35,823 nucleotides of DNA from a virus. The DNA lies in IMG/VR virus record IMGVR_UViG_3300010397_000068, positions 1-35,823 of that record; one strand, 5' to 3'. Below the pieces are notes generated by a model. That model was not told the DNA's origin. It did not search any database and saw only the letters and a program-made list of their open reading frames with translations. The position numbers were made by a program, and so were the translations under genes. This document shows positions 494 through 35,823 of this stretch, piece after piece (position 1 is the stretch's first letter; every line of letters begins with the position of its first letter).

Positions 494-1900
494 TTACCCC
501 AGCCTTCTGCGTCTGTCAGCAAAATATCCGCGGTGACTGGTGGGCTGCGCCTCCTGCTGGCGCTTCATGTACTCCTCGAACGGGTCGAGCAGCTTCTTTG
601 GCGGCGGCGGCGGTGGCAGCGCGCGCAGCATGTCCCGGGCGTAGCGGTGGGCGTACAGCCAGGCGTCGCCCAGGTCGGAGTGGTCGGCGTCCGTTGCCAC
701 CTTGCCGGGCCTCTTCCAGCGCAGCCGGCGCGCCTCGCGCAGCATTGCCGACTCGGGCTCAACGGTGGCAACGCCGCTGCGCAAGTCGTCGTTCAGCGTC
801 TGGATGAATTCGACCTTGCGGGCCTTGTCGGCCATCACCCACAAGATCTTCGGGGCGTCGTTGCGGAAGGTCTCGATCGTCTTCTTCGTCGTGTGGCCAG
901 CCGGGTCGAACACCACCGGGCCCGGGAAGCGCTCCTGCTGCTGCAGGATCTTCTCGAACAGCTGGTGGTTGGTCTGCTTGCCGTCCCATTCGACGATCCA
1001 CCCCAGGTGGGCCCTGTCTCGCGCCTGGGTGACGTCCACGCGGCTGAGGGCGTCTTTGTCGCTGAAGCCGAAGTCGAGCCCGTAGACGTGCGCGTAGAAC
1101 GGCGCCGGCGCGGCAATGACCGCCTTGTCGGGGATGGCGTACACCAGGGCGTCGGGGTCGACGATCCAGAGCCCGAGCCACTCACGCCGATAAATTATGC
1201 TGTCTTCAGTGAGCTTGAAGCGCTCGCGCGACTCCTGCAGCGGGTCGCGCCCCTGCCGGGTGAAGAACGGGTTCTGTGAGGCGTTGACCGGCGGGCCGCA
1301 CTTCCACTTCGATTCGTGGCAGGCGTCGAAAAAGAACCCTTCGGCGACCGGGCCCGGCGTGCCGTTGGCCCACACCTGGCCGAGGTAGTCGAGCGTGACC
1401 GGGAAGATCGCCGACTCGCATTCGTGGGCGAACCAGTCGGGCGCCAGCTGCGCCTCGTCGATGTCGACGAAATGCGCCTTGCGGCCGCGAGCTCGGGCGA
1501 CGTCGCTGCGATCGTGGAAGCTGAAGATCTCCAGCCGCCGTCCCTCGAGCGACCACCACTTGTCGGACCAGTGCTCTTGCAGCCCCAGGTCGAACTCACG
1601 GTTGTACTGCTGCAGCTCCTCCCAGATGATGTCGACGCCCTGCTCACCAGTGGGCGCGAAGTAGAACACCCGCGCGTTGGTGTGCTCCTCGAACGTCTTG
1701 AGCGTCTTGCCGACGACGGCCGTGGTCTTCCCGGTGCGGCGCCCCCAGTGCCGAGACAGCAGCGGGGCCGGGTCGTCGACCAACGTGAGCTGGTAATCTG
1801 CCAGGATCGGCCGGAAGCGCTGATAGCCGTCCCAGGTGCGCGCGCCGCGCGCGGCGACTACCCGCCGGGCGAGATCGCGAACGTCATCGCCCCACTGCAT
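494..1900 (-). CDS. terL: Terminase large subunit
   Basis: ATP-driven DNA-packaging motor and nuclease, 468 residues, a usual length for the family. The N-terminal ATPase shows a Walker A variant GRRTGKT near residues 53-59 and a Walker B HFVDIDEA near 143-150. The C-terminal RNase H-like nuclease shows acidic residues in YGLDFGF (D276), VVFDPAG (D332) and DADHSDLGDAWLYAH (near 410). It ends in a proline-rich, basic tail. The ATG at 1900 has no clear Shine-Dalgarno and lies 17 nt inside the preceding small gene, suggesting coupled translation. It is followed by the 66-residue gene and then portal, the expected packaging order. Confidence 0.95.
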   Translation of the reverse strand: MQWGDDVRDLARRVVAARGARTWDGYQRFRPILADYQLTLVDDPAPLLSRHWGRRTGKTTAVVGKTLKTFEEHTNARVFYFAPTGEQGVDIIWEELQQYNREFDLGLQEHWSDKWWSLEGRRLEIFSFHDRSDVARARGRKAHFVDIDEAQLAPDWFAHECESAIFPVTLDYLGQVWANGTPGPVAEGFFFDACHESKWKCGPPVNASQNPFFTRQGRDPLQESRERFKLTEDSIIYRREWLGLWIVDPDALVYAIPDKAVIAAPAPFYAHVYGLDFGFSDKDALSRVDVTQARDRAHLGWIVEWDGKQTNHQLFEKILQQQERFPGPVVFDPAGHTTKKTIETFRNDAPKILWVMADKARKVEFIQTLNDDLRSGVATVEPESAMLREARRLRWKRPGKVATDADHSDLGDAWLYAHRYARDMLRALPPPPPPKKLLDPFEEYMKRQQEAQPTSHRGYFADRRRRLG

Positions 1901-2063
1901 CGGGAGGCAGCCGCGAGCGTTCGATCAGCTCAACCGCCAGCCGTTCGACGTACTCGTAAAACGGCGCCATGAGCCGCTGCAGACGCTCGTGGGCAGCGTC
2001 CTCCTGCTGCACCTGCCAGCGCATCCAGTTCGCGTCGGCGCGCGCCTGTTCGGCCGGCGTCAC
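1884..2063 (-). CDS. Small helical protein upstream of terL (59 aa)
   Basis: Read directly from the minus strand. A GTG at 2063 overlaps the previous stop by 4 nt (GTGA), and the frame runs to a TGA at 1884-1886. The predicted protein has a central stretch, RWQVQQEDAAHERLQRLMAP, followed by EYVERLAVELIERSRLP, which look alpha-helical and possibly coiled-coil. It overlaps the terL start by 17 nt. I do not recognise a family. Its place directly ahead of terL would suit a small terminase subunit or packaging accessory, but that is inference. Confidence 0.6.
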   Translation of the reverse strand: MTPAEQARADANWMRWQVQQEDAAHERLQRLMAPFYEYVERLAVELIERSRLPPDAVGR

Positions 2064-2185
2064 TTCGACTCGCGCGCGCTGTTGTAGGCGATCGCCGCGG
2101 CCACGTCGGGCCGCTTGCCGGCCTCGATCTCGGTCGCGATGTTCTTGCGGATGGTCTTCTTGCTGCGGCCCCGTCGAAGCGGCAT
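2060..2185 (-). CDS. Conserved very small phage protein (41 aa)
   Basis: An ATG at 2185 overlaps the preceding stop by 1 nt (TGATG), with GGAGG 5 nt upstream. The protein is very basic at its start (MPLRRGRSKKTIRKNIATEI) and continues EAGKRPDVAAAIAYNSARESK. The pattern MPL-(K/R)-x-G-x-S-xKTI-x-KNI-x-TE-x-x-AGK resembles a small basic protein that I know from many tailed phages, usually of unknown function. The close spacing with both neighbours supports a real gene. Confidence 0.8.
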   Translation of the reverse strand: MPLRRGRSKKTIRKNIATEIEAGKRPDVAAAIAYNSARESK

Positions 2186-2508
2186 CAGTCCCTCCTGAGC
2201 GGGCGGCCCCACTTGTCGACGATGAGCGATTGGCGCGACAGCAGCCGCTGGCGGGCGTAATCGTCCCGCTGGGCGCGCGCCACGGCGCTCAGGTCAAGCT
2301 GCGGCGTCGGCTCTGGCTCGGGCGGCGCGGGCGCCTTGCCGCCGTTGGCGACCCACTCTTGGTGCTTCTTCTCCAGCTCCTTGATGGCGGCCAGCATGCG
2401 GAACTTGTCGGCCTCGGGCAGCTTCTTGAACTCGCGGATGACGTCGGCCGCCGGCATTCCCATGCCGCTGGCATACGTCTCCAGCGCCTCACGGATCGCC
2501 CTCAGCAC
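2185..2508 (-). CDS. Hypothetical packaging-module protein (107 aa)
   Basis: It starts at a GTG (2508) that overlaps the previous gene by 7 nt. The N-terminal 60 residues look helical (ADVIREFKKLPEADKFRML, then a charged KELEKKHQEW stretch). A proline-rich linker (APAPPEPEPTP) follows, then a short C-terminal region ending DKWGRPLRRD. No enzymatic motif is visible. A helical, DNA-binding small terminase is one possibility given its position, with the gene at 3142-3531 as the rival candidate. Confidence 0.7.
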   Translation of the reverse strand: MLRAIREALETYASGMGMPAADVIREFKKLPEADKFRMLAAIKELEKKHQEWVANGGKAPAPPEPEPTPQLDLSAVARAQRDDYARQRLLSRQSLIVDKWGRPLRRD

Positions 2509-2729
2509 GGGAAATCCATGCTGATTTGGTCCACGTACGTCACCTGCCAGGACAACGCATCGTCCGGCACGCGGCCGCCCTCGCCGGACGTCAAGATGGC
2601 GAAGTTTTCGGGCGACGTGTAGAGCTTCTTGACCACGCCGTCGACCCTGAGCGCGTAGACCACGCGCGAGCGGTTCGGCTCATCGCCCGCCCAGGTCGGA
2701 AGGTAGTGATCCGCCTCCACGTTCAGCAC
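2502..2729 (-). CDS. Hypothetical protein (75 aa)
   Basis: I chose the GTG at 2729 because GGGAG lies about 8 nt upstream and the start overlaps the end of the GNAT gene by 7 nt. The longer open frame upstream is only the shadow of the GNAT gene. The predicted protein has alternating hydrophobic residues suggestive of beta strands (SRVVYALRVDGVVKKLYTSP) and ends VTYVDQISMDFPC. I do not recognise the family. Confidence 0.65.
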   Translation of the reverse strand: MLNVEADHYLPTWAGDEPNRSRVVYALRVDGVVKKLYTSPENFAILTSGEGGRVPDDALSWQVTYVDQISMDFPC

Positions 2730-3145
2730 GTGGCACGCTCCCACTTCACCCCGCGCCGCTCGCACCAGCGCTGCCAGCTGGGCGTGGGCAGCAGCGCCGT
2801 CATCGGCTTGAGCATGCCCATCGGCCGCCACAGCAGCGTGTCCATCAGCAGGCGCAGGCCGATGCCGTCGCCGCGGAACCCGCGCTTCACGTAGAGCATG
2901 GCGACGCCGGTCGGAGCCGCGACGACGAAGCCGAGCAGCACGCCGCCCGACTCGGCCACGTGCACCTGGCCGTCGCGCATCCAGTGGTCGACCATGGGCC
3001 CGTGCATCATCTTCCACTCGCCCCACGGGATGCTATTGCGGCGGGGCCAGCGCACCTTGACGGTGGTCTCGAACACGAACTGGTAGTCGGTCGGCCGCAT
3101 GGGGCGGATCTCGACGGGCAGCTCAGACTCGGCGACGGCGGTCAC
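2723..3145 (-). CDS. GNAT-family N-acetyltransferase-like protein (140 aa)
   Basis: The N-terminus shows an IRPMRPTDYQFVFE start typical of GNAT domains. The acetyl-CoA-binding motif A is visible as LYVKRGFRGDGIGLRLLMD (R-G-x-G-I-G). The length suits a single GNAT domain. The GTG at 3145 overlaps the preceding stop (GTGA). GNAT-like proteins next to terminase genes occur in several phage lineages, and their substrate is generally unknown. It might modify a host or virion protein; the sequence does not say which. Confidence 0.8.
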   Translation of the reverse strand: MTAVAESELPVEIRPMRPTDYQFVFETTVKVRWPRRNSIPWGEWKMMHGPMVDHWMRDGQVHVAESGGVLLGFVVAAPTGVAMLYVKRGFRGDGIGLRLLMDTLLWRPMGMLKPMTALLPTPSWQRWCERRGVKWERATC

Positions 3146-3531
3146 TTCTTCACCGCGGTCACTTCGATCGCCCCTTCCCGCCGCGCCTGCGCCGCCTCGG
3201 CCTCTCCCAGGAGGCGTTCGAGCTCCATGCGCACGCCGAGCGCGATGCGCTCGTTTTCGGTGAGCGAGACGGCGTCCTTCACGCCCACCAGCTCCCCGTA
3301 GACCTTGGCCGCCGCCGGGGACGCTTTCTCGCCCGCCAGCGCCTGCACGAACATGGCGTTCACCAGCTTGCAGATGCGCGACGGGTTCTCCTGCTTCCGC
3401 AGCGCCGCCTTGACCTTGTCGCGGTACTCGCGCTCTGCCTTGGACATTCCCCCTGGGTTGCCCGACTCACCGGGCTTGAACGGACGTCCCGGAGCGTTCC
3501 GCACAGCCAAGCTGCCTCCAGCCGCGCTCAT
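3142..3531 (-). CDS. DUF5681-like phage protein, candidate terminase small subunit (129 aa)
   Basis: The N-terminal region carries GRPFKPGESGNPGGMSKAE, matching the FKPGQSGNPxGRPK signature of DUF5681 proteins, which usually lie beside terminase genes. A basic helical part (EYRDKVKAALRKQENPSRI) and a C-terminal helix (RMELERLLGEAEAAQARRE) follow. AAGG lies about 8 nt before the ATG at 3531. It is the first full gene of the packaging transcription unit. A micro-ORF overlaps its start, and a conserved late-promoter-like element lies just upstream. A small-terminase function is likely by position but not shown. Confidence 0.75.
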   Translation of the reverse strand: MSAAGGSLAVRNAPGRPFKPGESGNPGGMSKAEREYRDKVKAALRKQENPSRICKLVNAMFVQALAGEKASPAAAKVYGELVGVKDAVSLTENERIALGVRMELERLLGEAEAAQARREGAIEVTAVKK

Positions 3532-3554
3532 TGCCGACCTTCACGTTTCGTCAT
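3528..3554 (-). CDS. Leader micro-ORF (MTKREGRQ)
   Basis: An ATG at 3554 opens an eight-codon frame whose TGA overlaps the ATG of the next gene (ATGA). It begins 7 nt after the GTAGCC of the promoter-like element, so a transcript starting there would be nearly leaderless. The lysis gene at 16127 begins with the same ATGACGAAA at the same distance from its element. It may serve translational coupling or be the start of a downstream-box-like signal. Confidence 0.4.
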   Translation of the reverse strand: MTKREGRQ

Positions 3555-3561
3555 TCACCGC

Positions 3562-3590
3562 GGCTACTCACAAACGCCGCAGCAGCGCAA
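3562..3590 (-). promoter_or_regulatory. Late-promoter-like element, copy 1 (packaging unit)
   Basis: On the minus strand, TTGCGC (3590-3585), a 17-nt spacer ending TGTGA, then GTAGCC (3567-3562). The block TGTGAGTAGCC is shared with three other intergenic copies at 16135, 20580 and 32762, always 12 nt behind a TTGNNN. It precedes the packaging genes. The -10 position does not resemble a sigma70 TATAAT. Confidence 0.65.
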
Positions 3591-3593
3591 GAG

Positions 3594-3767
3594 CTACGCT
3601 GGATGCCCGATGGCCATCTCTCGTGGCGTCGCCACCCGAATCACGTCCGCCTCGTTCGCGGTGCGCGCCGTGTGAGACCAGCGGACCCCGCGCGGCCACT
3701 TGCTGCCCATCCAGAGTCGCACCCGAATCCACCCGTGGTCGTACCGGTGTTCAATCAGCGCCACCAC
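3594..3767 (-). CDS. Hypothetical small protein (57 aa)
   Basis: The frame is open upstream to 3986, but the only convincing ribosome-binding site is GGTAGGG just ahead of two consecutive GTG codons (3767 and 3764). The predicted protein reads ALIEHRYDHGWIRVRLWMGS, then KWPRGVRWSHTARTANEADV, ending REMAIGHPA. This looks like a small beta-rich protein and is more protein-like than the rest of the frame. I do not recognise it. It lies at the 3' end of the cargo operon. The start is uncertain. Confidence 0.45.
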   Translation of the reverse strand: MVALIEHRYDHGWIRVRLWMGSKWPRGVRWSHTARTANEADVIRVATPREMAIGHPA

Positions 3768-4005
3768 CGGAGCCCTACCAGTGATTCGAAGGACACACGC
3801 GGGGCGTTCTTCTGGGGGGTTCCCCAGGCGTTGCTGCTGTTGCCCCGCGTGGCCGGCGTGTTCGCGCGACGCCGCGGGTATGTCCCTAAGAGCGCGCCCA
3901 CGTTCGCCAGTCGACCCAAGCCCCGAACGGTCGACCGAGAGGCGTTGCCCGCGCGAGCGGGCGCCTTGGCGGTGAGGCGTTTGCATTCGCTCCCAGGCTG
4001 GCGGG
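3768..4005 (-). other. Gap with several strong inverted repeats; possible structured RNA
   Basis: On the minus strand this 238-nt gap holds GCCCGC-TCGC-GCGGGC, two copies of GGTCGAC about 11 nt apart, and CTGGGG-AACC-CCCCAG. Two overlapping frames are open (one from 4057 to 3755, one from 3986 to 3594), but neither has a good start signal and neither looks clearly protein-like throughout. It could be a transcript end with stacked hairpins or a small structured RNA. There is no U-tract to support a classical terminator. Confidence 0.35.
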
Positions 4006-5772
4006 CTAGGTCTCCACCAGAGGCTGGTACGTGTCTGCCGTCTTGCCCGACAACCATGCGACAGCCTCAGTGGCGTCGGCGACGGTCGGCGGGACCCTGA
4101 GCATGTACGCCTTCCAGCGCGAGTCCGGCGTGGCGCCGGCGCGGGCGGCGGTGCGGTTGAAGATGCGAGCTCCGAACTCGGCTCGGGCCTCCGCGCTCGT
4201 CAGACTGCCGTCCGGCTCTGGCGTCGAGTTGAGCAGGCGCACCATTACGATCGGCTCGTCGTTCTCAACCTCCTTGCGGTAGAGCACGCCGTACTTGGTC
4301 CGGTTTACCGCCTTCGCTCCGGAGTCGAGCAGGTAGCGCGCGGCGCCGTAGCGCTCGATCATCACCCGCCGAACCTCCGCGTTCGCCTCGGCCTCGATTT
4401 CGGCCACCGTGATGCTGGCGGGCGCGTCGATGACGTGCGCCGGAACCCGCACACCGTGCGAGCCGTAGAGCGCCCAGCCATCGCGCCATGCGATGAACGG
4501 GCCGTCCTCCCGGTGCGGGCGGTTGTTGTCGTCCTTGGCGATGACCGTGGGCCGGTCGCTCACGATGCAGAACTTGGCGTGCATGAATCGCGGGCCGCCG
4601 TGGATGGCCGCCGCCTCGTAGTGCTGGAACTTCTCGTAGATAGGCAGCTCGAGCTTGGCGACGTGGCGGAAGAACGAGAGGTAGGCCGACCATCCGGACC
4701 AGAAGTTCCCGCCGACGTACATCCGGCCCCACCATGTCGAGCAGCGCACCAGGAACATTGCGACGGGATCGGCCGTGGCGGCGTGCGTGGCGTCGTCCGT
4801 GGCGGCGTGCGTGGCGGCGCGCGTGGCGGCGTCCGTGGCGGCGTACGTGGCGTCGGCCGTGGCGGCGGCCGTGGCGTCGGCCGTGGCGGCGCGCGTGGCG
4901 GCGTCCGTGGCGGCGCGCGTGGCGGCGTCCGTGGCGGCGCGCGTGGCGTCGTCCGTGGCGTCGGCCGTGGCGGCGCGCGTGGCGGCGTCCGTGGCGGCGC
5001 GCGTGGCGGCGTCCGTGGCGTCGGCCGTGGCGGCGTCCGTGGCGTCGGCCGTGGCGGCGCGCGTGGCGGCGTCCGTGGCGGCGCGCGTGGCGGCGTCCGT
5101 GGCGTCGGCCGTGGCGGCGTCCGTGGCGGCGGCCGTGGCGGCGCGCGTGGCGTCGTCCGTGGCGGCGCGCGTGGCGTCGTCCGTGGCGGCGCGCGTGGCG
5201 TCGTCCGTGGCGGCGCGCGTGGCGTCGTCCGTGGCGGCGCGCGTGGCGGCGTCCGTGGCGGCGCGCGTGGCGGCGTCCGTGGCGGCGCGCGTGGCGTCGT
5301 CCGTGGCGGCGCGCGTGGCGGCGTCCGTGGCGGCGCGCGTGGCGTCGTCCGTGGCGGCGGCCGCTGATCTCTTAGCCTCTGGCCGCGGTAGCGGCTTCAG
5401 CGTTCGGGTCATGTGAACCCCGCGAGCCACCGCGAAGGCGACAGCCCGCCGCAGCGCCATCTCGAGCTCGGTTTCCGTGAGGCGCCGGCCGAACAGGTCA
5501 CGCTGCTTCTGGGGGTTCTCCCGCAGCCACCAAACGCCCGCCGCAGCCGATGCAGCGATGGCACCGCCGATCGGAGACGCGCAGAACACAATCCGCTCGG
5601 GGCGCGCGAGGTTCGCCGCTTCGTACAGCCCGTTGACGGCGACCCGCATCGCGTCGCGGTCGTTGTCGTCCATCGGGGTGGTATTGAGCCCGTTGGCGAT
5701 CCAGCGGTCTCGCCACGGGGCGAGTTGGGCGCGGTGTTCCTCGGTCAGCTCGTATTTGCGTTTGGTGGCCAT
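4006..5772 (-). CDS. DUF6745-like protein with a long tetrapeptide-repeat region (588 aa)
   Basis: The ATG at 5772 has AGGAG 9 nt upstream. Three parts are visible. The helical N-terminus (about 1-135) includes WRDRWIANGLNTTPMDD and a short hydrophobic segment (GGAIAASAAAGVWWL). A repeat region (about 137-334) of A-T-x-(A/D) tetrapeptides follows, encoded by 12-bp units. The C-terminal domain (about 335-588) has NRPHREDGPFIAWRDGW and DSGAKAVNRTKYGVLYRKEV, resembling what I know as DUF6745. Function is unknown; proteins of this type occur in actinobacteria, myxobacteria and their phages. It follows the RQGDV gene by 29 nt, so the pair is one operon with its own promoter near 6230, away from the structural genes, which suggests lysogenic cargo. 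Confidence 0.75.
   Translation of the reverse strand: MATKRKYELTEEHRAQLAPWRDRWIANGLNTTPMDDNDRDAMRVAVNGLYEAANLARPERIVFCASPIGGAIAASAAAGVWWLRENPQKQRDLFGRRLTETELEMALRRAVAFAVARGVHMTRTLKPLPRPEAKRSAAAATDDATRAATDAATRAATDDATRAATDAATRAATDAATRAATDDATRAATDDATRAATDDATRAATDDATRAATAAATDAATADATDAATRAATDAATRAATADATDAATADATDAATRAATDAATRAATADATDDATRAATDAATRAATDAATRAATADATAAATADATYAATDAATRAATHAATDDATHAATADPVAMFLVRCSTWWGRMYVGGNFWSGWSAYLSFFRHVAKLELPIYEKFQHYEAAAIHGGPRFMHAKFCIVSDRPTVIAKDDNNRPHREDGPFIAWRDGWALYGSHGVRVPAHVIDAPASITVAEIEAEANAEVRRVMIERYGAARYLLDSGAKAVNRTKYGVLYRKEVENDEPIVMVRLLNSTPEPDGSLTSAEARAEFGARIFNRTAARAGATPDSRWKAYMLRVPPTVADATEAVAWLSGKTADTYQPLVET
4771..5364. repeat. Tandem 12-bp repeat array, about 49 units
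   Basis: On the plus strand the unit is GTGGCGNCGNNC, repeated without interruption or length change. The minus strand encodes GCC-ACG-NNC-GNC, that is A-T-x-(A/D) with x = Arg, Asp, Ala, rarely His or Tyr. Two of four codons are invariant and the other two vary only in their first two bases. Because the unit is 12 bp and lacks stops, several frames are open in this array; only the minus-strand frame of the 588-residue protein continues into unique sequence on both sides that looks like a protein domain. Confidence 0.95.
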
Positions 5773-9233: not shown

Positions 9234-9520
9234 GCGAGCACCGCCCCGGCCATCGCCAGTTCGAACTCGTCGCGCAGGCGCCGCAGCACCTTGGCGCGCT
9301 CCCCAGCTGCGGCCACGCGCTTCTTCCGGCGCTCGCGCTGGTCGTGGTCGCCGTAGTAGCTGCCGCCGTCCATGTCGGCGGCCGAGTCTTCGAGCGCCGC
9401 CCGGATGAGCCGGGCGAGAGCGACCGTGACCTTCGTCTGGTCATCCTCGAACGGCACCACCGCCGGCGCGGTGCAGTCGGTGGGGTACTTCTCATGAGCG
9501 GCCAGCAGCCCGCCGTTCAT
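9230..9520 (-). CDS. Hypothetical protein (96 aa)
   Basis: The ATG at 9520 overlaps the previous stop (ATGA), and the stop overlaps the ParB-like start (GTGA). The C-terminal half is strongly charged and helical (DHDQRERRKKRVAAAGERAK, then VLRRLRDEFELAMAG). No known motif. Tight coupling on both sides places it in the replication/recombination operon. Confidence 0.7.
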   Translation of the reverse strand: MNGGLLAAHEKYPTDCTAPAVVPFEDDQTKVTVALARLIRAALEDSAADMDGGSYYGDHDQRERRKKRVAAAGERAKVLRRLRDEFELAMAGAVLA

Positions 9521-9726
9521 CGGCCACCCGCCTTGATCTCGGCCAGCGCCTCAAGATAGGCGGCCGCGAACATGTCGAACACCTCGGCCACCGCTTGACG
9601 CGGTGTCACCGACGCGGTAGACGCCTGGGGCTTCTTAAAATCGGGGCGTGGCGCAGCCTGGTAGCGCGTTCGGTTCGGGACCGAACGATCAGCCGGACCG
9701 GCCGACGCAGCGGAATGGGGTTCCAT
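9517..9726 (-). CDS. Small protein whose 5' part overlaps the attP candidate (69 aa)
   Basis: The ATG at 9726 has GGAG 6 nt upstream. The first half (ADRSVPNRTRYQAAPRPDFK) is the antisense translation of the tRNA-Pro fragment at 9642-9690. The second half (TPRQAVAEVFDMFAAAYLEA) looks like a normal helix. If the phage integrates through this tRNA segment, the gene would be split. Either it is a real gene with an N-terminus captured from the tRNA, or only the C-terminal half is functional. Confidence 0.5.
   Translation of the reverse strand: MEPHSAASAGPADRSVPNRTRYQAAPRPDFKKPQASTASVTPRQAVAEVFDMFAAAYLEALAEIKAGGR
9595..9623 (+). promoter_or_regulatory. Sigma70-like promoter pointing into the tRNA-Pro fragment
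   Basis: TTGACG (9595-9600), 17-nt spacer, TAGACG (9618-9623). The predicted start (about 9630) is roughly 12 nt before the tRNA 5' end at 9642. No plus-strand gene follows, so it fits a promoter for a tRNA rebuilt after integration. The -35 is near consensus, the -10 is weak. Confidence 0.45.
9642..9690 (+). other. attP: 5' half of tRNA-Pro(CGG), candidate attP core
   Basis: The segment reads as a tRNA from position 1 to the variable loop: acceptor strand CGGGGCG, TG, D-arm GCGC-AGCCTGGTA-GCGC, then anticodon arm TTCGG-TTCGGGA-CCGAA with anticodon CGG, then CGATC. The expected T-arm (GGTTCGAATCC-like) and 3' acceptor strand CGCCCCG are absent downstream. The close match to bacterial tRNA-Pro in the D-arm and anticodon loop makes chance unlikely. 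It lies about 200 bp beyond the integrase stop, the usual place for an attachment site. The exact crossover point cannot be seen without the host attB. Confidence 0.75.
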
Positions 9727-9844
9727 GCTGGTCTCCGTTCTGAGGTTGTCTCGAGCCCACAAGGCTCCGCGCGCCTTCTGCACACAGAAGGGCCACCGAC
9801 GGCTGCGGGAAGAACGCGCGAAGGCTTGCAGGCTCGAAATCCAT
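9689..9844 (-). CDS. Possible small protein between integrase and attP (51 aa)
   Basis: An ATG at 9844 has AGAAGG 8 nt upstream. The predicted product starts MDFEPASLRAFFPQPSVALL and ends in the attP region, overlapping the next start by 38 nt. Its second half looks less protein-like. It may be a real small gene (such as an excision factor), but no family features are visible, so this is a weak call. The stretch 9845-9897 otherwise holds nothing I recognise. Confidence 0.3.
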   Translation of the reverse strand: MDFEPASLRAFFPQPSVALLCAEGARSLVGSRQPQNGDQHGTPFRCVGRSG

Positions 9845-16794: not shown

Positions 16795-18678
16795 TCAAAA
16801 GATGTTGGGCGCCATCAGCAGGTTGGCGGTGAAGATCATGTTGCCGGTCATCCCGGTCCCGGTGCCCGACACGAGGACCCCCCAGCGGTCACTTGCGCTG
16901 GGGCTGCCCACGGAAACGGTGCCGGTGGTCAGGTTGCCCGCGGAGACATTGTTGAGCGTGATGGTCGAGAACGAGGAGCCGTTGCGGGTGATCTGAACGG
17001 CCAGCGTCCCCGAGGTGATCGCGTTCGTGATGATCCGGACGTTGAGAGCGACGTTCGTCGCGGCGAAGCTCTGGACGTACTCGAGCGCCGTTCCGCCCTG
17101 CCCAGCCGTGGATGACGTCCCGAGCCAAACCGCGCCTCCGGTGACGAGCGTCGACCCTGCGACGTTGATGTAGTAGGGCAGCGTCCCCGAAACCGCAGCG
17201 GGGAGGCCGCCGACGCCAGCGATGCCAACCGTGCCGCTGGTGTCCGCGGCCACGATGATGTTGCCCGATCCGCTGAGGGTGGTGCAGGTAAGATTCCCCC
17301 CGAGCTTGGTCTGCCCTCCTGCGACGTGGAGCGCCACGGCAGTCGACGAGACGAGGCCGCCGATGGTCGGGGCGTTGTCGATGTAGACGGTCGCCGCCTC
17401 GGTCATCGAGACGGACGATCCTGGGTTGGCGTAGCTCACGGCCCGGATGCGCTCCGTCGCATAGATGCCTGCCGTTACGCCCGTTCGTATGGTGGTGTTC
17501 GATGGGTTGACGTCCACGAAGGTGTTGTCCGACGTCCCCGTTGCCCCCAGCGCGCCACCGCCCACGTTGAACTGCACCCGGTCGCGGTCCGCGTTCGTCG
17601 TGTGGCCACAGACCAAAGAAGCGTTCGTGGGCACCGATGCCCCGTTGATTCCGACGGCGTTGCCGGCCGCCTGGACGTGCAACGCCGTGTCGAAGGTGTA
17701 CGTTGAGTCGCCAACCGGAATGGCCGTTGGCCCCGCGCTGAGCATCACCTGCGATGCGGCCGGGAGTCCGGCATACGACGTTCCGCACGTTCCAGCCGAC
17801 GTGGTGATAGCCCCCGTGAGAGCGGGAAGCTGCGCGCAGGCCGAAGAGCCGGAAAGGTCGGAAAAGTCAGGCTGTGTGCATGGTATGTTTCCGTTGTTCA
17901 ATATCGACGTCGCGAACTCGTGAGCCGGGCATGCCTGCGTTCGCACGCCGTGGGTGACGTTCCCAGCGTCGTCCTTGCTGCTGAAGGTGTGCGACGTCGA
18001 GTCGCCGTAGAAGGTCACCCACCCTGCCGCCGGGGTCGCCGGGGCAGCCATCGACTTGATCGACGTGACGCCGGCGTTCGAGACCGTGAAGAACCGGTTG
18101 GCGTAGGTGGCTCCGTTCACGAAGGCGAACTCACCACCGGCTGCGATGGAGGCGTTCAGGATCGTATGGTTGCCGGAGTCCATGCCGAGGAGATTCCGGC
18201 CGGCCGAGGCGATCCACCCGTTCGTGGTCGCGCCGGTGTTGTCGGCGTTGGGCAGGTTGATGAACCCGGCTGCGGCCGTGATGTTCACCTCGCCGTTGAC
18301 CGATTCCACTTTGGCGGCGTTGTCCCAGGTGAAATCTGGCGAGCTGCTCATGTTGGTGCCCGTGCCGTAGGCGATCTGCTGGGCGGGGATGACAATCCCG
18401 CACGTCGCCACCGGGGAGCCAGAGCACGAGATCGGCGACGTCCCGACGACGCCCGTGATGGTGCCGGTCCCACACGGCACGCTCATCGGGAGGAAATGTC
18501 CGGTGCTGTCAACCGCAACGCAGCGGGTGCCCGAGCCGGCCAGGTCGTTGACCTGAAGAGTCCCAACGTTGAGGCATGCGAGGTTGTTCCCGTCGCGATC
18601 GTCCTGCCAAATGTAGGCGGCCCGCGCCGTTCCGCCGAAGGCGCTCAGCAAGCAGACGATGCTGGCCACTCGCTTCAT
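16795..18678 (-). CDS. Large fibre-like protein with an N-terminal Sec signal (627 aa)
   Basis: The protein is Gly/Ser/Thr/Val-rich with many short beta-type repeats (TIGGLVSSTAVALHVAGGQT; GSGNIIVAADTSGTVGIAG) typical of elongated tail fibres, and ends TGNMIFTANLLMAPNIF. No S74 chaperone domain is visible. Unusually, it begins MKRVASIVCLLSAFGGTARA followed by AYIWQDD, a convincing Sec signal peptide with an A-x-A cleavage site. Start is the ATG at 18678; a GTG at 18687 overlapping the SGNH stop would add three residues. Its place after the esterase suggests receptor binding. Confidence 0.75.
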   Translation of the reverse strand: MKRVASIVCLLSAFGGTARAAYIWQDDRDGNNLACLNVGTLQVNDLAGSGTRCVAVDSTGHFLPMSVPCGTGTITGVVGTSPISCSGSPVATCGIVIPAQQIAYGTGTNMSSSPDFTWDNAAKVESVNGEVNITAAAGFINLPNADNTGATTNGWIASAGRNLLGMDSGNHTILNASIAAGGEFAFVNGATYANRFFTVSNAGVTSIKSMAAPATPAAGWVTFYGDSTSHTFSSKDDAGNVTHGVRTQACPAHEFATSILNNGNIPCTQPDFSDLSGSSACAQLPALTGAITTSAGTCGTSYAGLPAASQVMLSAGPTAIPVGDSTYTFDTALHVQAAGNAVGINGASVPTNASLVCGHTTNADRDRVQFNVGGGALGATGTSDNTFVDVNPSNTTIRTGVTAGIYATERIRAVSYANPGSSVSMTEAATVYIDNAPTIGGLVSSTAVALHVAGGQTKLGGNLTCTTLSGSGNIIVAADTSGTVGIAGVGGLPAAVSGTLPYYINVAGSTLVTGGAVWLGTSSTAGQGGTALEYVQSFAATNVALNVRIITNAITSGTLAVQITRNGSSFSTITLNNVSAGNLTTGTVSVGSPSASDRWGVLVSGTGTGMTGNMIFTANLLMAPNIF

Positions 18679-18683
18679 GGGCT

Positions 18684-19310
18684 TCACGTCCCGAACTGCA
18701 GCCGCTGGTAGACGCGGTTGCTGAGCACGTTCTGGCCTGCCGTCTTGGTGGGGTGGGTGCCGGGCGCCTGGGTCAGGATGCCCGAGGACAGGTCGGTGGG
18801 GTTCTGGATCGGCTCGTCGAAGGTGAAAATCTGGTCGCGGATGTTGATCCACTCGGCGTTCGGCTCCGCCGCGACCACCGCCTTGATGGCGGCGTTGGTG
18901 TTCTGCGTGTCGACGTCGTGCGCGCCCGAGCCGTCGGGCCAGAGCTCGCTCTGGTACCACATGTTCGAAATCACGTGGAACTTGCAGTTCGGCCGGGCCG
19001 CCTTCACCGCCGCGAAGTACGCCACGTAGTTGGCGGCGCTCGTTGCCGGGGGGATCGGCGTCCCGCTGTGGTTGTCGTGGTCGTTGAGCCCGCACAGGAT
19101 GATGCAGTGGTCCGGGTTGAGGGCGGTGGTGGTGGCGACGCGGGAGAGCATGTCCGTGGTCGTGTCACCCCCCACGGCGTTGACGCCGAAGGTTGGCGGG
19201 GGAGAGCCGGCGCCGTTGAAGAGGGCTTGGATGGACGCCTGCAGCGGGATCATCCATTGGTAAGTCGCGTCGGGAAACCCTGCGGTCATGGAGTCCCCGA
19301 TGAAGACCAC
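18684..19310 (-). CDS. SGNH/GDSL-type esterase (208 aa)
   Basis: Catalytic blocks are clear: block I VVFIGDSMTAG (Ser), block II glycine in VNAVGGDTT, block III CGLNDHD (Asn), block V APGTHPTKTAG (His). Such enzymes remove acetyl groups from surface polysaccharide and are found in phage receptor-binding complexes. The start is problematic: the only conventional codon near the fold's first strand is the GTG at 19310, without a Shine-Dalgarno. The frame is open up to the TGA that ends the lectin-like gene (19353-19355), in the same frame, so the esterase may be made partly by readthrough. Its stop overlaps a possible GTG start of the fibre gene. Confidence 0.85.
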   Translation of the reverse strand: MVFIGDSMTAGFPDATYQWMIPLQASIQALFNGAGSPPPTFGVNAVGGDTTTDMLSRVATTTALNPDHCIILCGLNDHDNHSGTPIPPATSAANYVAYFAAVKAARPNCKFHVISNMWYQSELWPDGSGAHDVDTQNTNAAIKAVVAAEPNAEWINIRDQIFTFDEPIQNPTDLSSGILTQAPGTHPTKTAGQNVLSNRVYQRLQFGT

Positions 19311-19352
19311 CTTCTGTGCTGGTTTGATGCCCAGCGCCCCGACCGGGGGCAG

Positions 19353-20099
19353 TCAAACTAAGACGTAGCCGTAGGTGATGTCGCTCACGAAGACGTTGCC
19401 GGTCGTCGCGTTGTAGGCGAAGAACGCCCGGGCGCCGGCCGTGAGGTTGGTGAGCACCGACGTATTGCCGACAGCGACGTCATCCACGTACGCGACGTAG
19501 GTGGTGCCGTTGAACGAGACCGAGTAGTTGTGCGGATTGCCGTCGACCACGTGCGACGTGACGATGTTGGTGGTGCCGCCATTCTTCGACAGCTGCAGCA
19601 CCAGGTGGGTCGCGTCGATGGACGTGCGCGCGCACAGGTTCACCGTCTCGTTGAACGCCGCGTTGGAGACGCCGACGAACTGCCCGCCCGCCTCGACGGC
19701 GGAGAACCGCCCCCGGAACGACCAGGCGTGCCGCTTGGTCGTCAGGTCGGTGTAGATGCCGCCGGTGAAGGTGAGGACGTGCGCCGACGCGGGGGTCCGT
19801 CCGCCTCCCTCGATGCCGGCGTCGTTGGCGTCGATCGTCGGGTTGACGGCGTCCGTCGCCGGCTGGATGTTGGTGGGCTTGACGTACTGCCAGGACAGCC
19901 CGGGAACGGCGGCATTCAGCACCGCCTGACGCGCGGTCGCCCATGGATTGCCGCCGCCGATCTGCGTGTACGGGGTGCCATCGGCGCTCACCTGCAGCAC
20001 GCCGCCAACGCGGGCGATCACCGACTCGCCAAGGACGCTCAGATCCGGGGCAACGTCCTTGAAGCTGAGGCCGCCCGGGACAGTTTGCTTGCCAGCCAT
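19353..20099 (-). CDS. Lectin-like (concanavalin/LamG-type) virion protein (248 aa)
   Basis: It begins MAGKQTVPGGLSFKDVAPDL. The C-terminal 130 residues show alternating beta strands with WSFRGRFSAVEAGGQFVGVS, LVLQLSKNGGTTNIVTSHVV and NYSVSFNGTTYVAYVDDVAV, typical of a jelly-roll lectin domain. The ATG at 20099 overlaps the upstream TAA (TAATG), with GGGGG 5 nt upstream. The frame continues past its TGA into the SGNH esterase. It probably forms part of the receptor-binding complex. Confidence 0.7.
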   Translation of the reverse strand: MAGKQTVPGGLSFKDVAPDLSVLGESVIARVGGVLQVSADGTPYTQIGGGNPWATARQAVLNAAVPGLSWQYVKPTNIQPATDAVNPTIDANDAGIEGGGRTPASAHVLTFTGGIYTDLTTKRHAWSFRGRFSAVEAGGQFVGVSNAAFNETVNLCARTSIDATHLVLQLSKNGGTTNIVTSHVVDGNPHNYSVSFNGTTYVAYVDDVAVGNTSVLTNLTAGARAFFAYNATTGNVFVSDITYGYVLV

Positions 20100-20527
20100 T
20101 ACGTCCCCCTCACGTTGACGGCCACGTTGAGCACGCCGGCGGCGCCGCCCGACGCTCGCGTGTAGACGACGCGCCCCCACTTGAAGCGCGGGAAGTTCGC
20201 CCCGGCCAGCGTGAACTGCGCCTTGCCCGACGTGCCGCCCGACGGGTTCGAACTGGTCATGTCGGCGGTGCGCGTGATGGCGACGGGCCCCAGGACGCTG
20301 CGCGAGACGTTCGGATCCTCGTCGTTGGTCACCTCAAGATCGAACGCGCCGGTTGCGGCGGTCGTTGTCCCGGTGAGCGGCCATTTGATCTGGACCCCGA
20401 TGGAATCCATATCTTCGAGCCGGATCCAGGGACCGACGACGGTCGCCGTCGAGCGGCTATCCGGGGGCGTCGCGTTCGACATGTCCCCGGCAACGATGTA
20501 GGCGGGATTGTTCTTGAACCGACTCAC
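20099..20527 (-). CDS. Virion beta-sandwich protein (142 aa)
   Basis: A GTG at 20527 has a strong GGAGGT 5 nt upstream. The protein starts MSRFKNNPAYIVAGDMS and continues with alternating strands (SIGVQIKWPLTGTTTAATGA, then FDLEVTNDEDPN). This pattern is common in phage proteins that attach to fibres or decorate capsids, but the family is not clear. First gene of the receptor-binding unit. Its ribosome site and start codon lie inside a hairpin (20527-20559). Confidence 0.65.
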   Translation of the reverse strand: MSRFKNNPAYIVAGDMSNATPPDSRSTATVVGPWIRLEDMDSIGVQIKWPLTGTTTAATGAFDLEVTNDEDPNVSRSVLGPVAITRTADMTSSNPSGGTSGKAQFTLAGANFPRFKWGRVVYTRASGGAAGVLNVAVNVRGT

Positions 20528-20559
20528 GAAACACCTCCATCCGTGGAGAGGGCGTTTCG
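20527..20559 (-). promoter_or_regulatory. Hairpin masking the ribosome-binding site of the gene at 20527
   Basis: On the minus strand, CGAAACGCCCTC (20559-20548), a 9-nt loop, then GGAGGTGTTTCG (20538-20527). Nine consecutive pairs (one G-U) plus two after one mismatch enclose the Shine-Dalgarno and the first base of GTG. The 11-nt arm CGAAACACCTC (plus strand) is the same as that at the capsid gene. Confidence 0.7.
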
Positions 20560-20579
20560 TCGTGAGCCCTACAGTAGCC

Positions 20580-20608
20580 GCCTACTCACAGCGCGGCCTT
20601 TGCTTCAA
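20580..20608 (-). promoter_or_regulatory. Late-promoter-like element, copy 3 (receptor-binding unit)
   Basis: On the minus strand, TTGAAG (20608-20603), 17 nt ending TGTGA, then GTAGGC (20585-20580). The TTGA overlaps the stop codon of the upstream gene. It lies 20 nt before the ribosome-masking hairpin. Confidence 0.65.
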
Positions 20609-21186
20609 GTATTTGTTTGCTGGCGCACCTCGACGTCGCGCCGGTCTGCGGGCGTCGCCATCGCGGTCACGTTGGCGCCCGACGTCGCCTTCGGCTTGCC
20701 CTTGGGCGGCTCTCCCTCCTGGGGCTTCTCCTGGGGCCCGCCCAGCCCGCCCGTCACCACGTCGGCCGGCGGCTTCTGGAAGAGCACGGCCAGCACCGTC
20801 TCGGCCCAGCCTTCGTACGGCGGCGCCGTCGTCACGAGATCATGGAGCGCCTCCCGCTCGAGCTCTCCGTAGATCTCAGGGAAGGCGAACGAGACCGCGT
20901 CCACCTCGTCGGGCCCCAGCATCCCCGCGCGCATGAGCGCGCGCGTGCGATCGTGCGGCGAGGCGATCACCGCGAACACCCGGTCGAGCCGATCCTGGTC
21001 GACCGCCGACAGCGGCAAGGGCGCGCCCCACTTGTCGAGCTGCAGCTTTGGCGTCCTCGTCATGAGGTACTGTTTCGCCAGCGTCGGCGGATCGGGCTCT
21101 GCGGTGAGCACCTGCATCATCCGCTCGAGGTCGACGTGCGCGGGCTCCGGTGGCGCCGGCGCGGGCGGCTTGTTGAGCCAGCTCAC
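20605..21186 (-). CDS. Hypothetical virion-module protein (193 aa)
   Basis: The GTG at 21186 overlaps the preceding stop. It starts with a proline-rich stretch (PPAPAPPEPAHVDLERMM), a helical middle (DRLDRVFAVIASPHDRTRAL), and a disordered C-terminus rich in Gly, Pro and Lys. No family recognised. It ends the ejection-protein operon and may be a chaperone or minor ejection protein. Confidence 0.65.
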   Translation of the reverse strand: MSWLNKPPAPAPPEPAHVDLERMMQVLTAEPDPPTLAKQYLMTRTPKLQLDKWGAPLPLSAVDQDRLDRVFAVIASPHDRTRALMRAGMLGPDEVDAVSFAFPEIYGELEREALHDLVTTAPPYEGWAETVLAVLFQKPPADVVTGGLGGPQEKPQEGEPPKGKPKATSGANVTAMATPADRRDVEVRQQTNT

Positions 21187-23189
21187 GGCGCGATCACTTC
21201 GTGAATGAGCGCAGCATGCCCCAGGTTGTGGTCGTTGACGTCGAGCGCGTGGTGCAGCGCCGCCGGGAGGCCCGCGGCGGTGCGCTCCTCGGCGGTCGCC
21301 GGGCGGCCGAACAGGCGCACGCCGTTGAGGAGCTTGCTGGGCGCCCCCGAATCCTTCGCGGCGGCTCCGACGGTCGCTGTCCGTGCCGCGGTCGCCGGAA
21401 TCGTCTCGGCGGCGGCTGGAGCTCCAGCGGCGACCCGCGACAGCCCGTAGTCGATGTGCCGACCGACCTGGGCGGCCGCGCGGCCGGCCGCGGGAAGAAC
21501 CTTCGTCGCGAGAGCGGCCGCGGCCGCCTCCTTGATGCCACCGCCGGCGAGGTGCACGCCCTCGCCCAGCATGCCGCCGGCCAGCATCTCAGGCGCGGCC
21601 TCGCGCAGTCGGCCCACCAGCGACTTGGCGCCGGTCTGCTCGTTCATGAGGCGCTCTTTGAGCACGTCCCGCATCGGGATCAGCACGGACGTGCTCTTGT
21701 TGCGGGCCCTGAAGCGATCGAGGTTCACGCCGGGGGCCACGTCTTCCAGCTGCGAGGTGGCGTCCTCGATCGCGCCGCGGTAGGCGCCGTAGAGATCGCG
21801 CTTCACCTGCGTCTTGAGCGCGCGCGAGGCCCCCGGCGTCGTGCCAAACGCGGCGTCGCCGATCTCGTTCCGCATGCCGCGGAGCTGCTCCCCGCTCAGG
21901 ACGGCGTTTTCCGCCTGCTTGCCGCCGTAGTTCTTGACGAGCGAATCGATCTCGCGCTGCACCGCCTCGGCCGCCTGCCCCTTGCCGGCGCCGAGATAGC
22001 CGTCCTTGAGCTTCTTCATCGGCCCAACGACGTCGGTCAGCTTCACGCCGCCGGCGTCGGTGATCGCCTTGTAAACGGGCGCGTTCATCGCGTCATTGCG
22101 GTCGATGATCTCCTGGACGCTCTCCAGCGCCTTCTTTGGGTTCCGCGCCGCCGCCGTCGACAGCGTGTGCTCGAGCGCCGGATCTTCGTCGAGCACGTCG
22201 CCCAGGCGCTCGCCCTCCTCGCCCGCGCGCGCGGCCAGCTTGCGCACCTGAGACTTTGTCGGCTTCGCCCCTTCGCCTTCGCCCTGGACGACGTCCTTGA
22301 GCGCCCGGGCGCGCACTCGCGCCGGAGCCCCCTCGATCGCGCCAGCCCCGGCCCCCAGCGCACCGCCGAGCGCGGCGCCTTCGAGCGCATCGCGCGCCGA
22401 TCCGGTCTGGCCGCCGCCCTGGATCCCGCCCTCGAGAGCGCCTGTCCCGGCGCGCGTGAGCAGCGGACCCGCCACCCTCCCCAGGACGGGGGCGACGAGC
22501 TTGCCGGCGCCACCGGCCAGGACGGTGGAGACGACGCCACGGGCGGTCGGATCGTCACGCAGTTCACCCGGCAACCCCTGCGCCGGCTTCGGCAACGGCG
22601 TGTTGATGTCCTGCGGCGGGCTCACGAATGCGGCGCGGGCGGGCAGGCCGATCTCCCCCAGCGGCGTCACCTGCGCCCCGGTGCCGATCCCGAGATCTTC
22701 GTCGCTCATCGACTCCGAGCGCGGACGATGGTTGACCGGCGCCGGCGCGGGTGGCGGTGCCGTGGCGGCCAGCCACTGATCGACAGGATCGGACGCCGCC
22801 GACGGGGGAGGTCCGCCGACGCCGTAGAACTTCGCCTGCTGCTCGTGAAGGGCCTGCGCGTAGCGGGTCGCCGCGTCTGGGTCCTTGAACTTGCCGAGAT
22901 GCCTCCCGGTCTTCATGTACTGCTTGACGGCTTCGTCGTCCGACAAAACGCGCGCATGAGGTCCATCGCTCACCGTCGGAAGCAGCACCTCCTTGCCGTC
23001 GATGTTGAACGATGCGGATCGAACCGTGCTGATCGACCCGTCCGGGTTCTTCACCCGGGGACGGTGCGCAAGGTCGATATTGCCCGGCTCCAGCAACCCG
23101 TCGAATTTGCCCGTGGGGCCGGCGGATTCTGCAGCGGGCGCCACCGGCGGCGCTGTCGCCGCGAGCCATGCGTCGGCGTCATCCGCCAC
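21183..23189 (-). CDS. Large internal virion/ejection-type protein (668 aa)
   Basis: The GTG at 23189 overlaps the previous gene by 11 nt. Near residues 35-120 it carries GNIDLAHRPRVKNPDGSIST, then VLLPTVSDG, then MKTGRHLGKFKDPDAATRYA. This motif (GNIDLxxRPxVxNxDGSxSTV ... TGxHLGxFxxxxxA) recurs in podophage internal virion and multi-domain lytic proteins. The middle has Gly/Ala-rich, possibly membrane-active helices (GALGAGAGAIEGAPARVRAR). No lysozyme motif is evident. Last and largest of three ejection-type genes. Confidence 0.75.
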   Translation of the reverse strand: MADDADAWLAATAPPVAPAAESAGPTGKFDGLLEPGNIDLAHRPRVKNPDGSISTVRSASFNIDGKEVLLPTVSDGPHARVLSDDEAVKQYMKTGRHLGKFKDPDAATRYAQALHEQQAKFYGVGGPPPSAASDPVDQWLAATAPPPAPAPVNHRPRSESMSDEDLGIGTGAQVTPLGEIGLPARAAFVSPPQDINTPLPKPAQGLPGELRDDPTARGVVSTVLAGGAGKLVAPVLGRVAGPLLTRAGTGALEGGIQGGGQTGSARDALEGAALGGALGAGAGAIEGAPARVRARALKDVVQGEGEGAKPTKSQVRKLAARAGEEGERLGDVLDEDPALEHTLSTAAARNPKKALESVQEIIDRNDAMNAPVYKAITDAGGVKLTDVVGPMKKLKDGYLGAGKGQAAEAVQREIDSLVKNYGGKQAENAVLSGEQLRGMRNEIGDAAFGTTPGASRALKTQVKRDLYGAYRGAIEDATSQLEDVAPGVNLDRFRARNKSTSVLIPMRDVLKERLMNEQTGAKSLVGRLREAAPEMLAGGMLGEGVHLAGGGIKEAAAAALATKVLPAAGRAAAQVGRHIDYGLSRVAAGAPAAAETIPATAARTATVGAAAKDSGAPSKLLNGVRLFGRPATAEERTAAGLPAALHHALDVNDHNLGHAALIHEVIAP

Positions 23190-34014: not shown

Positions 34015-35823
34015 TCAGGCTGCGGCCGGGATCGGCGTGACGGGCGGAATCTGAGTGATGGTCGGCGCCACCGGCGCGATCGGCGCCTGGCCACCGGGCG
34101 GCGGCATCATCGGCGGCGCCGGCGGGACCATGGGCGCCTTCGCCTTGTCGACCGCCGGCTGCAGGGCGTCGATGAGCCGGCGCATGTCGCTCAGGCGCTC
34201 GGCCGGGTAGTTCGACCCGTCGTACATCGCGCGCAGATAGCGGGCCCGGGCGTACGACTGCATCGCCGACGGGTCAATGTACGGGTCCGGCGTGACGTAC
34301 TTGCCGTCGTTTAGAATGCTGTCGCAGATCGCCTCCATCGCATACGGCTGCGCCAGCGTGAGGTCGATGAGCGGCGATAGATCGGGGATGTCGAGCCCCT
34401 TCAGCGCGTCTTCCTTGCTCAAGAAGCCGCCCTGGATCAGTTCGGTGGCGCGCTGCAGGCGGGCCGCCACTGTCTGGCCGAACACCGACGTGGGGAAGCG
34501 GCGGATCTCATACTCGGCGTCGGCGTTCTCCATGGTGAGCTCGCGCCACACGCCGCGCGTGACCGCCCGCCACTTCGGCTTCATGCCCTTCTGCGCCAGC
34601 TCCTTGGTGAACCGCCACCACCAGCCGGCCGCCTCCACCCGCATGTCTTCCCAGCGCTGCGACAGGAGCGCCAGCCGATCGGTCTGAAGGTCGGACGCCT
34701 CACGGATGGCAACGGCGGCGTTCAGCCCGGGCTGCTTCTGCCCCCGGGCGATGAACTGCGAGACGCCCCAGGTGTCGTACGCCTGCTTGTTGAGCAGCTC
34801 GGCGTACTGGTAGATCTCGCCGTTGACGGCCGGCGGGGTGTCGATCTGCGCCGCCTGATTCTTGTAGCGAAGCAGCTGTATGTAGTCGTTGTTGAGCTTG
34901 GCGGGCGACTCTTCGTTCTCCTGCAACTGGATGTACTTCACCGACGACAGGTGGTGCGCCTCGCGCAACGTCCGCTGCAACTCGTTCAGCTCGATTTGAA
35001 TCGACCGGATCATGGTGATCCCACCGACGCCCCACATGCCCACCGGGCGCTCGTCGAACACCTTCTTGATGAGCGGGAATCCGTCGTACTTCCAGACGTC
35101 CTCGCCCTCCTTGGTCAGGATCTCCGTCCCGGCCACCATCACGTGCTTGCCGGGGATGATGTTGCCGTCGTTGTCCCGGCTGGCCCGCTGCCACGCCTCG
35201 ACGACGCGCACCAGCTCGCGGTTCGTGATGTAGATGATCGACGGCGGCGTGGACACGGCCTGCCTGCGCAGCTTCTGCTCGTCGACCTTGTACTCTTCGG
35301 CCGCCTGCTCCACCGGCATGTAGCGGACGTGGTAGGCGCACTCCGGCTCGCCGTAGATGCTCTCCCCCTCGTCGAACATGAATTCCCACGACGGGAAGCG
35401 GGCGCCGTGGATGCTGGCGCCGTCCATCCAGAGCTTGTACACGCCGCCGTCGCCCGTGATGAGGTCGCGGAAGGCAAAGGACGCCTCGTCCTGGTAGTGC
35501 ACCTCTTCGGCCCAGGCGTCCGACATCTCGGTCATGTCCCGAGCGCCCATCCGGATCTTGTAGTCGGCGCCGTCGGGCAGGAACTGCGCGCGCGGCCGAA
35601 ACGAACAGATCCGATTGCGGACGGTGTTGGTCAGCGAGTAGCAGACGTTGAAGACGAGGTTTTCCGGGTTCCACAGGCGCGCGCCGTGGTCGCCCTGCAC
35701 CTGGTAGAGCGACGAGAGTGGCTGGCCCAGGTACAGCTCGAGGTCGTACAGCAGGTTCTGCCGCCGCATCGACTCCAGCGGCGACATCTCCATGCGCGTG
35801 ACCTGGTCGATCAGCGCAGCTGC
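34015..35823 (-). CDS. Portal protein, main part (5' end wraps to 1-165)
   Basis: Forms the dodecameric gate for DNA packaging and ejection. Within the window this covers all but about 45 N-terminal residues (the last 10 codons repeat those at 94-123). Typical podophage portal phrases are seen: RMGARDMTEMSDAWAEEVHY, KLWMDGASIHGARFPSWEFM, GFPLIKKVFDERPVGMWGVG, SIQIELNELQRTLREAHHLS, GQKQPGLNAAVAIREASDLQ. The C-terminus is a Pro/Met-rich tail (PMVPPAPPMMPPPGG). Following terL and preceding scaffold, it fits the usual order. Full length about 616 residues with the GTG start at 165. Confidence 0.9.
   Translation of the reverse strand, partial: AAALIDQVTRMEMSPLESMRRQNLLYDLELYLGQPLSSLYQVQGDHGARLWNPENLVFNVCYSLTNTVRNRICSFRPRAQFLPDGADYKIRMGARDMTEMSDAWAEEVHYQDEASFAFRDLITGDGGVYKLWMDGASIHGARFPSWEFMFDEGESIYGEPECAYHVRYMPVEQAAEEYKVDEQKLRRQAVSTPPSIIYITNRELVRVVEAWQRASRDNDGNIIPGKHVMVAGTEILTKEGEDVWKYDGFPLIKKVFDERPVGMWGVGGITMIRSIQIELNELQRTLREAHHLSSVKYIQLQENEESPAKLNNDYIQLLRYKNQAAQIDTPPAVNGEIYQYAELLNKQAYDTWGVSQFIARGQKQPGLNAAVAIREASDLQTDRLALLSQRWEDMRVEAAGWWWRFTKELAQKGMKPKWRAVTRGVWRELTMENADAEYEIRRFPTSVFGQTVAARLQRATELIQGGFLSKEDALKGLDIPDLSPLIDLTLAQPYAMEAICDSILNDGKYVTPDPYIDPSAMQSYARARYLRAMYDGSNYPAERLSDMRRLIDALQPAVDKAKAPMVPPAPPMMPPPGGQAPIAPVAPTITQIPPVTPIPAAA

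Follow-up and report, generated by a model that had tools for sequence, protein, structure and literature searches.

In the textbook view, elements that integrate into tRNA genes retain the host tRNA promoter. The locus described here carries the 5′ half of tRNA-Pro(CGG), preceded by a promoter-like element and lying beside a tyrosine integrase gene of the opposite strand. Does this half serve as an attachment site, and from whose DNA would the tRNA be read after integration? The best explanation, to which a probability of roughly 0.87 is assigned, is that a temperate Myxococcota phage has its attP core in this segment, and that the host tRNA-Pro(CGG) is split, rebuilt from the phage 5′ half and read from phage DNA.

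The window is the entire virus record IMGVR_UViG_3300010397_000068, 35,823 bp with a GC content of 0.687. Because it has an exact 123-bp direct terminal repeat (1–123 and 35701–35823), the record is probably a complete phage genome, and the attP-like site is internal to it. Profile and family searches identified an integrase, a terminase, a portal, a helicase, an Mgm101-like recombinase, and a PD-(D/E)XK exonuclease, every one of them encoded on the minus strand (Table 1). Another minus-strand gene (4006–5772) encodes a 588-aa protein in which the four-residue units AATD, AATR, and DATR make up a long low-complexity stretch. The tRNA half is located 213 nt past the stop of the integrase, in which the catalytic residues R207, K234, H309, R312, H335, and Y344 are all present in the alignment. 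The imperfect inverted repeat between the two possibly represents arm-type sites or a structured end of the int transcript.

Table 1. Features around the tRNA half in the window and in the integrated element of genome G395 (contig C424).
Feature	Position	Strand	Details
Window
Small ORF over promoter and tRNA half	9517–9725	−	Stop overlaps start of next ORF (9520)
−35-like hexamer TTGACG	9595–9600	+	Host tRNA-Pro genes L002, L003, L005, L048, and L059 have TTGACW at similar distance
−10-like hexamer TAGACG	9618–9623	+	Spacer 17; 18-nt gap to tRNA nt 1 (9642)
attP identity block, nt 1–44 of tRNA-Pro(CGG)	9642–9685	+	Acceptor 5′ strand to complete anticodon stem-loop; 44/44 exact in 5 MAGs
Candidate integrase core, perfect 7-bp inverted repeat CGTTCGG/CCGAACG	9667–9687	+	7-nt spacer TTCGGGA (anticodon loop); from sequence
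Imperfect 23-nt inverted repeat	9751–9837		83%, 41-nt spacing; between attP and integrase
Tyrosine integrase, 387 aa	9898–11061	−	Pfam PF00589 8e-14; PHROG phrog_1 2e-27; alignment; stop faces attP
G395, contig C424
lon	1012–3660
Orphan tRNA-Ser(TGA) nt 1–39 with 6-nt leader (45 bp)	3848–3892		188 nt after lon
Two tandem tyrosine integrases (L136/L137)	18593–19765, 19950–21197		In 17-kb prophage with terminase
Second 45-bp copy	21205–21249		Start of intact tRNA-Ser(TGA) 21211–21294, then host DNA

The segment had been predicted to read as tRNA-Pro(CGG) from nt 1 to the variable loop over 9642–9690, with the T-arm and the 3′ strand absent. The identity to host genes in fact holds through the anticodon arm, for 44 nt and not 49: positions 9686–9690, CGATC in the phage and AGGTC in the host, are outside the tRNA identity, and the variable loop was therefore included 5 nt too far. 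The predicted absence of the 3′ part was borne out by ARAGORN and Rfam, as everything from the variable loop onward is missing from the phage. No tRNA is called by ARAGORN over the full 35,823 nt, no complete cognate tRNA being encoded, and the Rfam tRNA score of 21.9 bits is below the cut-off of 29, as expected for a half. The exact 44-mer is found in five stretches of genome_contigs, a collection of 84,980 species. Four of the stretches carry the label Myxococcales and the fifth Proteobacteria; each match is an intact tRNA-Pro(cgg) gene, and four of the five genomes belong to one Myxococcota order. This identity is longer than the 40 nt or so set beforehand for a match in the host lineage, and is judged not to be due to chance because blastn against single host genomes gives E values of about 1e-16 to 1e-17. 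The order is taken as the candidate host from the tRNA identity together with weak portal relatives (26–28%).

Within the matched region, the inverted repeat of the phage extends 2 bp beyond the tRNA identity, and that of the host is 5 bp. An inverted repeat in the anticodon arm is the usual layout of a tyrosine-integrase core site (PMC8371274). When the phage 5′ side was joined in silico to the host 3′ half, as the original prediction had proposed, tRNA-Pro(cgg) was restored in six of six hosts, while the reciprocal junction of host 5′ and phage DNA gave no tRNA in any host. It follows that, if the site is attP, only the side of the phage promoter allows the tRNA to be rebuilt. The adjacent integrase probably recombines attP with the anticodon arm of the host tRNA-Pro(CGG). 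The orphan left at the integrase-proximal junction would consist of the host promoter and host 5′ half, and at the distal junction an intact tRNA would form from the phage 5′ half and the host 3′ half. With its 5′ half coming from the phage, this tRNA would depend on phage DNA for its transcription, with TTGACG-N17-TAGACG as the likeliest promoter. None of 318 genomes of the host class (one incomplete genome per species) has a doubled core, and the search thus gave no integrated copy of this phage. In the candidate order, tRNA-Pro(CGG) is present as a single copy (within 2 mismatches) in 16 of the 18 genomes, with no prophage at these loci. The exact core is absent from viral_contigs, and megablast of the attP region against phages gave no match.

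The same arrangement is found in an integrated state in relatives. Genome G395, which came from a search of the candidate order (the phylum-wide integrase search covered a sample without it), encodes an integrase 56% identical to that of this phage over 317 aa. In its contig C424, lon is followed by an orphan 5′ half of tRNA-Ser(TGA), the prophage, and a second copy of the half that begins an intact tRNA-Ser; in its relative G384, lon and an intact tRNA-Ser are found uninterrupted in the same short stretch. From this repeat layout and the G384 order, the original 5′ half is read as stranded beside lon, and the working tRNA-Ser as having a 5′ side supplied by the element. The regions upstream of the two 5′ halves have TAA-TAGCTGA in common, in register (GTAAGTAGCTGA vs. 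GTAACTAGCTGA), and are otherwise different. The second of the tandem integrases is directly upstream of tRNA-Ser, so that it, and not the 56% relative, may be the one using the site. C424 also has, at 22487–22717, a weak 50% match to a repeat similar to that of the 588-aa phage protein. A second example is “pSK06” of Rhizobium leguminosarum (NZ_CP022570, L124). Its integrase shares 92% identity with the one encoded by phage RHph_I3_18; after it come an orphan 5′ half of tRNA-Pro(GGG) and, beyond that, HAD-hydrolase and cellulose-synthase genes, and no intact tRNA is on the record. With phage genes on one side and presumably chromosomal genes on the other, it looks like a prophage–chromosome junction contig and not a plasmid. 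Thus, the 5′-side attP originally predicted is strongly supported by the exact host match, the neighbouring integrase, the in silico rebuild, and related elements integrated likewise.

Furthermore, 5′ halves are found in phages of other lineages. Mvi-Yong1342-1, reached via a blastn match, has a tRNA-Pro(TGG) 5′ half next to a D3-like integrase, and more were found among phages with such integrases: VSN-002 with tRNA-Pro(TGG), RHph_I3_18 with tRNA-Pro(GGG), and Yong-M3-232 with tRNA-Val(TAC), the anticodons of the phage 5′ halves being read by eye from the loop. All four have the half at the integrase stop or shortly beyond it, on the other strand. D3, Cruim01, Medea1, and Yong-L1-251 also have D3-like integrases and carry 3′ halves. 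Since both attP types occur within each of two integrase clades in the tree, the reversed attP is suggested to have arisen at least twice. Three viral contigs have 5′ halves upstream of the integrase start and on the same strand: tRNA-Ala in L039 and L042 (about 4318–4362), apparently the same phage, and tRNA-Gly in L040 (about 4613–4656). Integration of these would be predicted to swap promoters, the integrase coming under that of the host tRNA and the tRNA under one from the phage. Sphingomonas parapaucimobilis plasmid unnamed4 (L122) carries phage genes, a VSN-002-like integrase (42%), and a tRNA-Val(TAC) 5′ half at about 4130–4170; this is another reversed attP, apparently not integrated at that place. 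The conjugative Novosphingobium sp. ES2-1 plasmid p2 (NZ_CP063447) has an orphan tRNA-Pro(TGG) 5′ half (L084 3003–3043) with no integrase annotated nearby. The annotated “telomere resolvase” of Sphingopyxis phage VSN-002 (L083 1030–2148) is a D3-like tyrosine integrase with attP adjoining. MT835499 was rejected as a reversed attP, being a full tRNA on an apparent bacterial chromosome contig, as were the plasmid tRNA-Pro matches L119–L121, which are full tRNAs.

Is the rebuilt tRNA also read from the element just upstream of the half? TTGACG-N17-TAGACG is present exactly as predicted, about 18 nt before the tRNA 5′ end on the plus strand. No sigma-70-like match upstream of the half scores higher than this one, at 8.06 (top 1.3–1.7% of equal-width windows in the phage genome); host tRNA-Pro genes score 3.2–8.8 by the same measure, with gaps of 13–24. 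Its −10 agrees with the consensus at only three of six positions, and a standard promoter scan, which requires T at the last −10 position, found no match at the site. Over the promoter scores of five reversed phages, Fisher p is about 0.005, driven by this phage, Yong-M3-232, and RHph_I3_18; the other two are without a notable promoter by the same score. The element had been described as having no plus-strand gene to serve. This is correct in that every gene identified by family is on the minus strand, but a small minus-strand ORF overlaps the site; its codon-usage score is +0.29 in the C-terminal part and −0.33 over the tRNA part, i.e., coding-like in the C-terminal part only, and Mvi-Yong1342-1 has an annotated CDS at the equivalent position. 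The weak −10, the overlapping ORF, and the reversed phages scoring poorly would all fit a variant of the best explanation, compatible with its attP part, in which TTGACG is incidental. The rebuilt tRNA would then be transcribed through from some other phage promoter, or its expression would be weak and CCG would be read by tRNA-Pro(UGG). Of the alternatives this one survives best, but it is considered unlikely, as the same geometry is seen in host tRNA-Pro promoters and as, in the RHph_I3_18 case, the phage attP and NZ_CP022570 have 59 nt in common including a 17-nt leader, and further upstream they diverge except mainly at TTGC and TAA, which remain in the same register (TTGCAT-N17-TAAACG in the host and TTGCGC-N17-TAATGG in the phage). 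TTGACG-N17-TAGACG is a plausible promoter resembling those of host tRNA-Pro genes, and the scores are supportive and not proof. Of the prediction that the tRNA is read from a phage promoter, supply from the phage side follows from the geometry, the 5′ half being on the phage, and the promoter itself is a candidate.

Much less probable is that the segment is a degraded phage tRNA gene, or a transcribed tRNA 5′ fragment such as an anticodon-nuclease decoy, with no role in integration. Such an origin could be imagined from the commonness of tRNA-Pro genes in phages, from a promoter-like site able to drive a half-tRNA RNA, and from the weak full-length alignment that Rfam forces on the segment. 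It would hardly account for an exact identity to one host order that stops at the boundary of the integrase core, or for a site beside the integrase stop that recurs in four unrelated phages and in integrated junctions.

The relatives of the integrase itself point to tRNA genes as targets. Its nearest viral relatives (L031–L034, 34–39% identity) have a tRNA-Lys(TTT) 3′ half downstream of the integrase, and two more distant Myxococcota integrases adjoin intact tRNA-Met and tRNA-Arg in the ordinary orientation. The clade therefore uses tRNA genes, at their anticodon arms, with this phage as the odd member in the tree of the first-found relatives. No close relative of the integrase was found in viral_contigs or phages. 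The G567 prophage region has only an unrelated tRNA-Arg, no tRNA half was seen at the Azospirillum integrase locus L125, and the helicase relatives L046 and L047 are uninformative for attP, their sequences stopping before it. That the tRNA is conventionally rebuilt at the host-promoter side, the phage 5′ sequence being merely extra, would agree with most tRNA integrators, including these nearest viral relatives, in carrying a 3′ half, but is scarcely tenable for a phage that lacks the 3′ half and whose DNA makes no tRNA with the host 5′ side.

Reversed-orientation integration using a tRNA 5′ half was reportedly described in bacteria by Zhao and Williams in 2002 (J Bacteriol 184:859), and archaeal pTN3-like integrases with the 5′ half are said to have been treated by Cossu in 2017. 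The arrangement, originally presented as very unusual, is indeed rare, but there is earlier documentation of it, and several of the phage lineages examined here have it. The bacterial tRNA retains its original promoter with very few exceptions, and pTN3-like integrases use the tRNA 5′ half, the tRNA then being expressed from the promoter of the integrase, an arrangement seldom met in bacteria (PMC8371274). Like this phage, the reversed elements including pTN3 carry the tRNA 5′ part; they express the rebuilt tRNA from their own DNA, as is predicted here (PMC8371274, PMC6563490). This phage differs from pTN3 in an attP that is not within the integrase gene and is on the other strand, and from reversed-orientation elements known before in being a Myxococcota phage with tRNA-Pro(CGG). 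In tRNA-dependent lysogeny, as in Fionnbharth and mycobacteriophage clusters K4/L, the lysogen's tRNA is also supplied from phage DNA with a phage promoter (putative here), but there the phage brings the whole tRNA and a core of ~10 bp (PMC10865867), whereas here it brings half a tRNA, with a 44-bp core, and the host supplies the rest. The 5′-half phages with D3-like integrases (Sphingopyxis VSN-002, Rhizobium RHph_I3_18, “Microcystis” Mvi-Yong1342-1, and “Synechococcus” Yong-M3-232) share the half past the integrase stop on the opposite strand, and differ in integrase clade and in using tRNA-Pro(TGG/GGG) or tRNA-Val(TAC). In Pseudomonas phage D3, whose attP is annotated, the tRNA is likewise opposite to the integrase and past its stop, but it is the usual 3′ half (tRNA-Leu) and the host promoter is kept. 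The mechanism is therefore of a rare known kind and not a new system; its recurrence across lineages is the fresher observation.

The original prediction also made the host tRNA-Pro(CGG) supply dependent on prophage DNA. The gene is indeed single per genome in the candidate order, but dependence on the phage promoter may be partial because tRNA-Pro(UGG) may also read CCG. A stronger form, in which the phage controls the only tRNA-Pro(CGG) of the host, its promoter replacing that of the host while the stranded host promoter runs antisense into the integrase and helps to lock lysogeny, is doubtful; if true, the supply of the tRNA for CCG codons in a GC-rich host would be altered in lysogens. The integrated examples from a Myxococcota MAG and Rhizobium, with the further phage attP sites, suggest that the reverse solution arose repeatedly in evolution and has been under-recorded, 5′ halves probably being overlooked by tRNA finders. 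The ownership of the promoter of the rebuilt tRNA thereby becomes testable in culturable systems, for example with Rhizobium phage RHph_I3_18.
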